A DNA stretch of 30,645 bases, from IMG/VR virus record IMGVR_UViG_3300047554_000594, positions 1 to 30,645 of that record; one strand, given 5' to 3'. A program made the translations under genes and the position numbers. This document shows positions 24,732 to 30,645 of the stretch, piece by piece (the stretch's first letter is position 1; every line of letters begins with the position of its first letter). This DNA is from a virus. The notes under the pieces are model-generated. The model saw nothing but the letters and a program-made list of their open reading frames with translations. It searched no databases and was not told the origin of the DNA.

Positions 24732-24847
24732 TTGCTCTACTTTTCTGGCTTGCTGCCCTTGTCATCGGTGGGCTGTTCATTGAGAAGCCTGACTGGGTTT
24801 GGCGGATACTGTTTTGGTTAGAGGTGAAGCGGCTTGAAAAAGAGTGA
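24728..24847 (+). CDS. Membrane miniprotein (39 aa)
   Basis: ATG at 24728 overlaps the upstream stop. The 39-residue product has one transmembrane helix (residues 2-18: I-A-L-L-F-W-L-A-A-L-V-I) followed by a Trp-rich amphipathic part and a basic end. Its 3' end overlaps the next gene by 14 bases. Function unknown. Confidence 0.55.
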   Translation: MIALLFWLAALVIGGLFIEKPDWVWRILFWLEVKRLEKE

Positions 24848-25157
24848 CTGGAAGAAACTGTTAGAGCGCGACTTGGGGCGCTGTGTGCATTGTGGGGAAA
24901 CTGAGGCTATCGCGCCGAACCATAGGGCTAATCGGGGGATGGGTGGATCAAAGGAATTAGATAAGCCCTCTAACCTTGTCTTGCTTTGCAGCAGGATAAA
25001 TGGGCTAATCGAGAGTAATGTCTTGTATGCTGGCGAGGCTAAATCTAAGGGTTGGAAATTGTCTAAATGGCAAGAGCCAGAATCAGTCCCAATTTGGGAC
25101 AATGTTGCACAGGCTTGGTTTGTGTTAGATAATGGCTGGATGCGCGAGAGGGTGTAG
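24834..25157 (+). CDS. HNH-type nuclease-like protein (107 aa)
   Basis: TTG start with GAGGTG seven bases upstream. It contains C-V-H-C-G, then P-N-H-R-A-N-R-G-M-G-G-S and N-L-V-L-L-C-S-R-I-N-G-L-I-E-S, the order found in a compact group of phage HNH-like proteins. The last His of a classical HNH is not evident, so activity is uncertain. Its stop codon lies inside the structured element at 25154-25235. Confidence 0.75.
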   Translation: MKKSDWKKLLERDLGRCVHCGETEAIAPNHRANRGMGGSKELDKPSNLVLLCSRINGLIESNVLYAGEAKSKGWKLSKWQEPESVPIWDNVAQAWFVLDNGWMRERV

Positions 25158-25235
25158 AATTAAAAGAGGACAGGCCGCGATGAACGACCTGCCCTCAAAG
25201 AACCGATAATCACACTATCGGCTTTCCTATTCTAC
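25154..25235 (+). ncRNA. Candidate three-way junction structured RNA (82 nt)
   Basis: Three stems can form together. P1: GTAGAAT (25154-25160) with ATTCTAC (25229-25235), 7 pairs. P2: GAGGACAGG (25166-25174) with CCTGCCCTC (25188-25196), 8 pairs and one A-C mismatch, 13-nt loop. P3: AAAG (25197-25200) plus CCGATA (25203-25208) with TATCGGCTTT (25216-25225), 10 pairs, a 2-nt bulge and a 7-nt loop. P2 and P3 abut directly and could stack. It lies between the HNH-like and GNAT genes and includes the HNH-like stop codon. It lacks a D-arm and T-loop, so it is not a tRNA. It could be a small RNA, a leader or a terminator-like element. Confidence 0.55.
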
Positions 25236-25262
25236 GGGATTGCCGAGGATAGGAATAAAATT

Positions 25263-25880
25263 ATGACAACCAGTTTTAATCTGGGAAAGTTCGATTGTGC
25301 CGTTGGGTACTCTAACGAGCTGTATAGAAAAGATGACCTAGTAGTTAGAACTGCGACAGAAAAAGACAAGTCATTTATTGACAAATTGCAAAAAGAAAAT
25401 AGCTACGCTGTTGGATTTATTCAATCAACAATATGGGACAAATATGTCTTCGGTGGCGAGCGCAATTTTGTAGTTTTTATCTGCGAAAAAAATAATGATA
25501 TGGTCGGTTATGTCTTACTAACCCCAGGTCGCGGCCCTTACACCTACACTAAGATTCAACAAATTGCAGTCAGGGAAGATGCTCGCAGGCTAGATTATGG
25601 CTCTGCCTTGGTCGAGGTTGTGCGCGATTTCTGCAACACTTTTAATCGAATCGGTGCAACTTTGCGCTGCCGAATTGACCTAGAATCAAATCGTTTCTGG
25701 CAAGCTCTGGGCTTCAATATGTATGGAGTCTGGGAAAAGGGCAAAGTCAATCATGTCGGCTTCAAGGCTTCCGCAGACATTAACTTATGGAAAATTGACT
25801 TGCACGATAGTATTTTGACCCTATTCAATTCTCAGGAACTTGATAACGGTTTCTGGATTGAAAGCGAGGTCAAAAAATGA
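25263..25880 (+). CDS. GNAT-family acyltransferase
   Basis: 205 residues. The acetyl-CoA motif is in V-R-E-D-A-R-R-L-D-Y-G-S-A-L (about residues 102-116), preceded by strand I-Q-Q-I-A, and a later N-R-F-W-Q-A-L-G-F (about 143-151) is typical of GNAT folds. The D-A-R-R and F-W-x-A-L-G-F pattern resembles phage GNAT proteins that have been compared with the DNA-modifying Mom enzyme; that link is speculative. It starts 27 bases after the structured element and is AT-richer than its neighbours. Confidence 0.8.
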   Translation: MTTSFNLGKFDCAVGYSNELYRKDDLVVRTATEKDKSFIDKLQKENSYAVGFIQSTIWDKYVFGGERNFVVFICEKNNDMVGYVLLTPGRGPYTYTKIQQIAVREDARRLDYGSALVEVVRDFCNTFNRIGATLRCRIDLESNRFWQALGFNMYGVWEKGKVNHVGFKASADINLWKIDLHDSILTLFNSQELDNGFWIESEVKK

Positions 25881-26647
25881 GTATTGAAGTTCAAAATGCA
25901 GTCTGGCGCGAGAGCGCATCAACAGGCAGAGCTAGGTTAGTTCTCTTAGCTATTGCCGACCATCAAGGCGAGATAGGCGCTTGGCCATCTATCGCCACCC
26001 TAGCCGAAATGGCTAATGCCTCAGAGCGGTCAGTTCAACGCGACATCGCCGAGCTAGTTGAATCAGGCGAGCTAATCAAATTAGAACAGCAAGCACCCTC
26101 GCGCGGTCAATACAAATCCAACCTTTACTGGGTCAATTTGCCCTCTGTTGCACACCTAATTTCAGGGGTGACAAATACGGTGTCAGGGGTGACAGAATTG
26201 CAATCAGGGGTGACAGAATCAGCGCCAGGGGTGACAGCAGGTGGCGTACTAACCATTACTAAACCATTACTTAAACCATTACTAAAAGATATACAGCAAA
26301 TCGAGGCTGAGTTTGATGAGTTTTGGTCAATCTATCCAAATCGCAAAGAGAAAACCGCTGCCAAAAAAGCCTTTGTCAAAGCCAGAGAAAAAACCGATGC
26401 TGATACAATCCTTAACGGCGCTCGCCGATACTTGAACGACCCTAATCGCGATCCTGCATTTACAAAACACCCTGCGACTTGGCTGAATGGTGGATGCTGG
26501 GATGATGACCCTATTCCTGCCAAGCTTTCTAAAGCCACTAAGCGCGAGGCAGAAGCTAAACAGGCTGGCGATAATTTTGTGAGAATGTTTACTCAGTCAG
26601 AAACAAAAGAAATTGAATCGGACATCAATTGGGGAGAAATACTATGA
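25877..26647 (+). CDS. Replication initiator with internal origin
   Basis: 256 residues in three parts. An N-terminal winged helix-turn-helix (about 1-80, with W-P-S-I-A-T-L-A and S-E-R-S-V-Q-R-D-I) would bind DNA. A low-complexity linker (about 96-120) with four G-V-T units is encoded by the 21-bp iterons. A C-terminal domain (about 140-215) with F-D-E-F-W-S-I-Y-P-N-R-K and H-P-A-T-W-L-N-G-G-C-W is found in many phage replication proteins. This is the architecture of lambda O: binding domain, origin-coding linker, loader-contact domain. The next gene looks like a helicase loader. Confidence 0.88.
   Translation: MSIEVQNAVWRESASTGRARLVLLAIADHQGEIGAWPSIATLAEMANASERSVQRDIAELVESGELIKLEQQAPSRGQYKSNLYWVNLPSVAHLISGVTNTVSGVTELQSGVTESAPGVTAGGVLTITKPLLKPLLKDIQQIEAEFDEFWSIYPNRKEKTAAKKAFVKAREKTDADTILNGARRYLNDPNRDPAFTKHPATWLNGGCWDDDPIPAKLSKATKREAEAKQAGDNFVRMFTQSETKEIESDINWGEIL
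26163..26236 (+). repeat. Four origin iterons, 21-bp spacing
   Basis: CAGGGGTGACA occurs at 26163-26173, 26184-26194, 26205-26215 and 26226-26236. The copies are identical over 11 bases and exactly 21 bp apart, two turns of the helix, so bound initiators would line up on one face. They lie within the initiator gene, as in the lambda origin. Confidence 0.92.
26251..26283 (+). other. AT-rich triple repeat, probable unwinding element
   Basis: AACCATTACT occurs three times (26251, 26262 and 26274, spacing 11-12 bases) directly after the iterons, followed by AT-rich AAAAGATATA. This is the expected position and form of a DNA-unwinding element. The codons (T-I-T-K-P-L-L-K-P-L-L-K) appear to be subordinate to the DNA pattern. 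Confidence 0.75.
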
Positions 26648-30298: not shown

Positions 30299-30461
30299 TT
30301 TAAACGACCTGATTGCGACTAACTCGATTAATGCTTTTAATCAGGGTGTGCAGACTGGGGTGAGGCAGGAGCAGGAACGCATTATCAAACTGCTAGAGCA
30401 GCGCACAGACATCATTGACGAATTTGCCTATGCAATCGAACTTATCAAGGGGGAAAAGTGA
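30291..30461 (+). CDS. Small protein sharing its C-terminal half with the first gene
   Basis: ATG at 30291 within the end of the previous gene. 56 residues: an N-terminal part (MSDLNDLIATNSINAFNQG) unrelated to the protein at 2-163, then the same 28 C-terminal residues starting R-I-I-K-L-L-E-Q, encoded by identical bases from 30378 on. The N-terminal part has the N-x-x-G-x-x-x-G spacing common in such early proteins. Function unknown. Confidence 0.65.
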   Translation: MSDLNDLIATNSINAFNQGVQTGVRQEQERIIKLLEQRTDIIDEFAYAIELIKGEK

Positions 30462-30645
30462 AATACGAAGACCAATACGAAATAATCAAAGAAGCCTCAC
30501 AACTACTAAGCGCACCTTTAGTCTGGAGCTATGACCTCGATGTCATCCGCAGACACCTCGCCTGTATCTTGGACTGCATAGCTGAGGGCGCTGACCCCGA
30601 ACCTGCTGCACAAGACTTAGCAACCGCGCTAACAGATGAATTTCA
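30378..30645. repeat. Terminal direct repeat, right copy
   Basis: Right-hand partner of 80-347. It covers the last 28 codons of the gene at 30291-30461 and the first part of the next gene. The mismatches change one residue in the downstream protein (Thr to Ile at residue 9) and are otherwise silent, so both copies look like functional coding sequence. If the molecule is circular, base 30518 joins base 221. Confidence 0.9.
30458..30645 (+). CDS. Second copy of the 68-aa protein gene, 3' truncated
   Basis: GTG start in a GTGA overlap. 62 complete codons are visible before the window ends. Identical to the gene at 160-366 except Ile for Thr at residue 9. If the molecule is circular, this is the same gene reached from the other side, in a slightly different allele. 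Confidence 0.75.
   Translation, partial: MKYEDQYEIIKEASQLLSAPLVWSYDLDVIRRHLACILDCIAEGADPEPAAQDLATALTDEF

Follow-up and report, generated by a model that had tools for sequence, protein, structure and literature searches.

A small antisense RNA gene with a hypervariable loop opposite the leader of a lambda-O-like phage replication-initiator operon

An antisense RNA gene of about 65 nt is well supported, by conserved anatomy and covariation, on the minus strand near positions 25154-25235 of the window, the whole 30,645-nt stretch of IMGVR_UViG_3300047554_000594 that we analyzed. The most probable role of its terminated RNA is to restrain the phage's replication initiator through translation control, with a placement like that of lambda OOP and a logic like that of plasmid copy control. 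Read along the minus strand, the element consists of a TANNNT box, a GCCGAUA start, the hairpin P2, a linker, the hairpin P1 and a U-rich tail (Table 1). The covariance model built for the family (R1) gave a single strong match in the window, at 71.6 bits (E 1.1e-20; 25222-25158, minus strand), leaving no second copy of the element there.

Table 1. Features of the RNA element and its surroundings in the window
Feature	Position	Strand	Evidence or remark
HNH endonuclease gene, ending at the element	24834..25157	+	PHROG 740, E 1.6e-22
U-rich tail TTTTAATTCTA, 3' of P1	25155..25165	-	terminator-like site by pattern scan
-10-like box TAGAAT, facing the putative antisense promoter	25155..25160	+	TANNNT in 61/62 members, 3-7 nt from P1
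Antisense RNA gene (P2 hairpin, linker, P1, start of U-rich tail)	25158..25222	-	covariance-model match
P1, terminator-type hairpin, 13 bp unbroken	25166..25196	-	all 13 pairs with two-sided changes
P2 hairpin CCGAUA-GUGUGAU-UAUCGG	25203..25221	-	six pairs, four with two-sided changes
P2 hypervariable 7-nt loop	25209-25215	-	39 distinct loops
B, P2 3' arm TATCGGC in the sense leader	25216..25222	+	pairs with A (25203-25208) or A'
P3, sense hairpin over the ribosome-binding region (GAGGATAGGA)	25224..25255	+	strand comparison of folds
-10-like box TAGAAT, putative antisense promoter (ATTCTA on +)	25229..25234	-	7 nt before GCCGATA
A' (GCCGA), repeat of the P2 5' arm next to the Shine-Dalgarno	25242..25246	+	changes with P2
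GNAT acetyltransferase gene, between element and initiator	25263..25880	+	PF00583, E 1e-9
Lambda-O-like replication initiator	25877..26647	+	PHROG 270, E 1.7e-37; PHROG 8540 'replication initiation O-like', E 5e-19; PF13730
Four 21-bp iterons (CAGGGGTGACA) and AT-rich repeats inside the initiator gene	26162..26287	+	repeat analysis

The strand of the RNA can be read from the way its longer stem changes. P1 spans 10-14 bp in all 62 unique members (42 distinct sequences, with a mean of 2.5 G.U pairs), and its oppositions on the minus strand comprise 147 G.U cells versus 5 A.C; since these changes read as G.U on the minus strand and as A.C on the plus strand, the structured RNA is the minus strand. 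Folding energies agree, at -23.8 kcal/mol on the minus and -13.3 on the plus strand for P1 of the window, and in 17 of 17 sequences P1 was unbroken and better on the minus strand (mean -23.1 versus -14.0 kcal/mol, p=1.5e-5). Across an alignment of 60 members, 98.3% of cells were paired, 17 of 19 pairs had two-sided changes and the covariation score was 0.641, compared with no more than 0.122 for slid structures and 0.19 for shuffled ones, where the alignment, being model-based and fitted to the structure, leans towards it and shuffle counts from related, non-independent sequences are not exact probabilities. Such an asymmetry of G.U over A.C shows that raw sequence can be enough to tell which strand encodes a structured RNA.

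Both ends of the RNA gene carry signals expected of a short transcription unit. The minus-strand TANNNT box is present in all 62 members, with 7-8 nt between it and P2 in 47 of the 48 unique contexts, and the tail after P1, with a mean of 6.3 T in its first 10 nt (62 members), makes a modest U-tract; the window's minus-strand P1 was itself called terminator-like by the pattern scan. About 70 bp away, the facing plus-strand box may be a sense promoter, given that position -2 is a conserved G, which recalls an extended -10, among the members that have it (61/62). The same TAGAAT forms part of the antisense U-tract and contains the HNH stop codon. No conserved -35 was found among members at either of the two boxes, on either strand. 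As a separate observation, the TAG of this box doubles as the stop codon of the preceding gene in the window (25155-25157) and in two other loci (L061, 3591-3593; L109, 10271-10273), and these three upstream genes are mutually unrelated.

A sequence-only reading of this region had proposed a plus-strand three-way junction at 25154-25235, made of a closing stem and two inner stems. The plus strand does fold in that way (-22.9 kcal/mol, z -3.98, 0 of 200 shuffles as good), and its two inner hairpins are real; the fold is nonetheless on the wrong strand and over-joined, as the junction that connects the hairpins is not real. What had been described as a 10-pair bulged stem is the unbroken 13-bp hairpin of the minus strand, its mismatches being G.U there and A.C on the plus strand. 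Only 2 of 58 homologues have all 7 pairs of the closing stem, which does not covary: a member's own arms pair no better (4.76/6) than arms taken from shuffled members (4.88/6), and these arms, TAGAAT and ATTCTA, are the two facing TANNNT boxes. Covariation, proposed earlier as a check of all three stems, is strong in the two hairpins and absent in the closing stem. In the closest relative that we found (L031/L070, ~95% nt identity), both hairpins are kept and the closing stem is gone. It is most improbable that the functional unit is this junction or some other plus-strand leader RNA, such as an antitermination element or riboswitch, which could point to the fold's z-score and to the -10-like plus-strand box before P1 but is contradicted by the unconserved closing stem, the A.C breaks of P1 on the plus strand and the refuted junction; P3 and A' do act on the plus strand, but outside the fold that was claimed. 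An HK022 put-like antitermination element or a plus-strand riboswitch, considered from the architecture, was dropped when P1 turned out to be a helix of the minus strand.

Other suggestions in that reading met with mixed outcomes. ARAGORN made no tRNA or tmRNA call, in agreement with the statement that the element is not a tRNA, and the idea of a small regulatory RNA survives once moved to the minus strand. An unusual terminator is a loosely apt description of the minus-strand P1, while an RNA-processing site and the plus-strand element as first drawn are unsupported. Among all Rfam 15 families, including ctRNA, RNAI and CopA, there were no matches at the gathering threshold in the window and four member loci.

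We found at least 70 relatives of the element in viral contigs and in the cultured Pontimonas phage phiPsal1, with the weakest accepted member at 27.7 bits and an actinobacterial host group wherever one is known. In phiPsal1 the element (31.3 bits) is flanked by an HNH gene and RepO. It was the initiator protein that led to it, since cultured phage records gave no match when searched at the DNA level with the element of the window or of L109; phiPsal1 is reported to have been lost (PMC6106888), and Nanopelagicales phages have been isolated (PMC10202952). The regions before the initiators of five other cultured actinophages held no convincing model match. A pattern scan of 85k prokaryote genomes returned 32 matches over scattered phyla, the best scoring 23.2 bits by the model, and we treated these as chance. 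A descriptor without fixed stem sequence, run over the viral loci fetched, gave 72 matches, all of them to this RNA family. When the window was compared with unrelated contigs by BLAST within the fetched loci, similarity started at 25154-25155 and ended at about 25249, so the element is a module placed in differing gene contexts; the left boundary given earlier was well placed, and the similarity runs past the right boundary of 25235.

The usual neighbor of this module is the initiator gene. In most members its ORF starts 33-43 nt beyond P2, and the link to the GNAT gene suggested in the earlier reading was dropped, because the element of the relatives precedes a lambda-O-like initiator, from which GNAT, GIY-YIG or HNH genes now and then separate it. 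Among 28 GNAT relatives, the upstream regions lacked the element immediately before the GNAT gene; in L002, the sole GNAT locus that has it, a GIY-YIG gene and the initiator follow the element. The earlier proposal of a cis-acting leader stands in the form of a plus-strand leader with its own Shine-Dalgarno hairpin and A' switch, and its GNAT-specific part is unsupported. The insertions themselves (window 25263-25880; L126; L002; L053; L219) comprise GNAT, GIY-YIG and HNH genes and small ORFs, with GNAT in the window, GIY-YIG in L126 and L002 and a 65-aa ORF in L219, as if the gap were a cargo site.

In the window, the initiator start overlaps the GNAT stop codon (ATGA). The iterons and AT-rich repeats inside the initiator gene form a probable origin, judged from their sequence arrangement: iterons with a period of ~21 bp occur in the initiators of the window, L112, L081, L124 and L219, and the AT-rich repeats behind the window's iterons follow the layout of the lambda origin. 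The phiPsal1 RepO gene has 15-bp repeats of its own. Given that the hairpins adjoin the initiator and its iterons, and that a primer role was once proposed for OOP (PMC3985674), they might be DNA-level origin elements, serving as single-stranded initiation sites or giving rise to a minus-strand RNA that primes synthesis; we regard this as very unlikely, as the strong bias of G.U over A.C and the promoter-terminator anatomy mark an RNA, and the primer idea was given up for OOP.

On the opposite strand, the leader of the initiator operon has a structure of its own. P3 folds better on the plus than on the minus strand across 55 right halves (p=1e-7) and has more G.U pairs on the plus strand. The relationship between P2 and A' is seen in stem variants: CCAACA/TGTTGG (n=9) and CCGATG/CATCGG (n=1) occur in loci fetched via the initiator protein alone, which were retrieved without use of the RNA sequence, and CCAGTA/TACTGG (n=1) occurs in L002, fetched via the GNAT protein. 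A', normally GCCGA, becomes GCCAAC in 9 of 9 CCAACA members and GCCGG in L002, changing along with the P2 stem, so that B has either A or A' as a possible partner. Where the B:A' helix would continue, its next two positions also pair more than in shuffles (0/5000). The window's B:A' has no more than 5 bp, and forcing B:A' costs 4-9 kcal/mol relative to A:B plus P3 in four leaders, with pseudoknot energy ignored. The leader and the minus-strand RNA are thus each structured, and a leader switch is possible.

From this arrangement we infer a route to repression. A minus-strand promoter, the TAGAAT inside the initiator operon leader, would start a ~65-nt RNA at GCCGAUA, which would fold into P2 with its 7-nt recognition loop and the terminator P1 and end in the U-tract. 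The operon mRNA crosses the same DNA in the opposite direction, and its leader would be the exact complement of the antisense RNA. Within the leader, B would pair either with A or with A' beside the Shine-Dalgarno, with P3 masking the ribosome-binding region; kissing of the leader loop by the antisense loop would capture B, so that B:A' could not open the ribosome-binding region. As the antisense RNA accumulated with genome copies, initiator synthesis and replication would drop. GNAT is first in the operon of the window, so control of the initiator would there depend on the leader together with coupling at the ATGA overlap.

Antisense transcription might instead matter in itself, with convergent polymerases hindering sense transcription and transcriptional activation of the origin, as has been reported of lambda pO and pR. 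The two facing -10-like boxes, the lambda pO versus pR data (PMC3985674) and the iterons inside the initiator gene would fit such interference, which we nevertheless consider unlikely because it leaves the P2/A' covariation, the conserved 6-bp stem and the hypervariable loop unexplained.

There are 39 distinct P2 loops in 62 members, with U at loop position 2 in 49. By raw pairwise counts, without a relatedness model, 16 of the 22 pairs with ~97% identity in their flanks have different loops (on average 5.3 of 7 loop bases match), and L052 and L235 are identical at 70 of 70 flanking bases and match at 4 of 7 loop positions. This faster variation of the loop than of its flanks is reminiscent of the specificity loops in plasmid antisense RNAs (PMC10724649) and suggests, as a lead, an incompatibility-type specificity tag. 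We tentatively extend this to a replication-immunity tag, a possible though not favored reading in which the antisense RNA would silence only initiator leaders with a matching loop. If so, co-infecting or resident relatives would exclude like genomes, loops would diversify by frequency-dependent selection, and actinobacterial phages would have 'incompatibility groups'.

The minus-strand RNA might instead regulate host mRNAs, or other mRNAs of the phage, in trans by way of its 7-nt loop, which is the exposed and variable part, its position reflecting genome organization only. L031 (5330-5770) and L070 keep the antisense RNA gene and have lost A' and P3, and GNAT and any detectable initiator are absent from the stretches compared; an extra trans role would fit these two. 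As the general explanation, a trans role seems improbable to us, since A' covaries with P2 across stem variants, the initiator context is nearly constant, and a seed against a host target would be expected to be conserved, not hypervariable.

Restraint of the initiator by an antisense RNA would have parallels in known systems. Lambda pO adjoins the start of O and points towards pR; its transcript is short and terminated, and the promoter affects replication (PMC3985674). Lambda replication is excluded by plasmids that carry oop together with iterons (PMC3349717). At the sequence level the element shares with OOP/pO a short terminated minus-strand RNA whose promoter lies just upstream of an O-type initiator and is transcribed away from it, a face-to-face arrangement with the operon promoter, an overlap with the upstream gene end and, in the window's group, an initiator gene with iterons (four) and an AT-rich region. 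This likeness is one of placement and sequence-level anatomy, without homology shown. The folds differ, P2 here having a hypervariable loop and the leader an A/B/A' switch, and the complement is the initiator operon leader, whereas the best documented target of OOP is the cII 3' end (PMC5869508, PMC12197685). We did not encounter a cII-type gene end as antisense target: the upstream gene was HNH or methyltransferase in the cases read, and antisense overlap with it is limited to the stop-codon region.

In anatomy and covariation the element also resembles plasmid copy-control RNAs, which are antisense to an initiator leader with competing structures. Loop nucleotides set antisense specificity in I-complex and IncL/M plasmids (Inc RNA/RNAI; PMC10724649), and, according to works cited there, long-range pairing in the plasmid leader competes with antisense binding. 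The present RNA differs from these in belonging to a phage, in its separate GC-rich terminator hairpin and in its sequence, and leader-peptide control was not identified here. RNAII of pMV158 is a very small antisense RNA with a terminator hairpin that inhibits initiator translation (PMC4485353); its 5' part is a single-stranded tail, with the loop secondary, whereas the 5' part here is a hairpin. In phage BTP1, the antisense RNA STnc6030 is described in a review as having a part in superinfection exclusion, which phages escape by mutations within the antisense region (PMC12197685), but it targets the tailspike gene and not replication. If our reading is true, a poorly known phage group has an RNA family absent from Rfam 15 that joins an OOP-like placement before an O-type initiator with plasmid-like antisense control by a variable loop, giving a testable mechanism for limiting early replication in such phages and perhaps for excluding relatives.

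Close to its ends the window carries a direct repeat of 268 bp (80-347 and 30378-30645, 98% identical), which begins 79 bases in and is thus not a simple circular overlap. Within the family, L153, L236, L253, L256, L266 and L275 share one P1 sequence with differing P2 loops, P3 types and downstream genes, which is mosaic exchange within the element.
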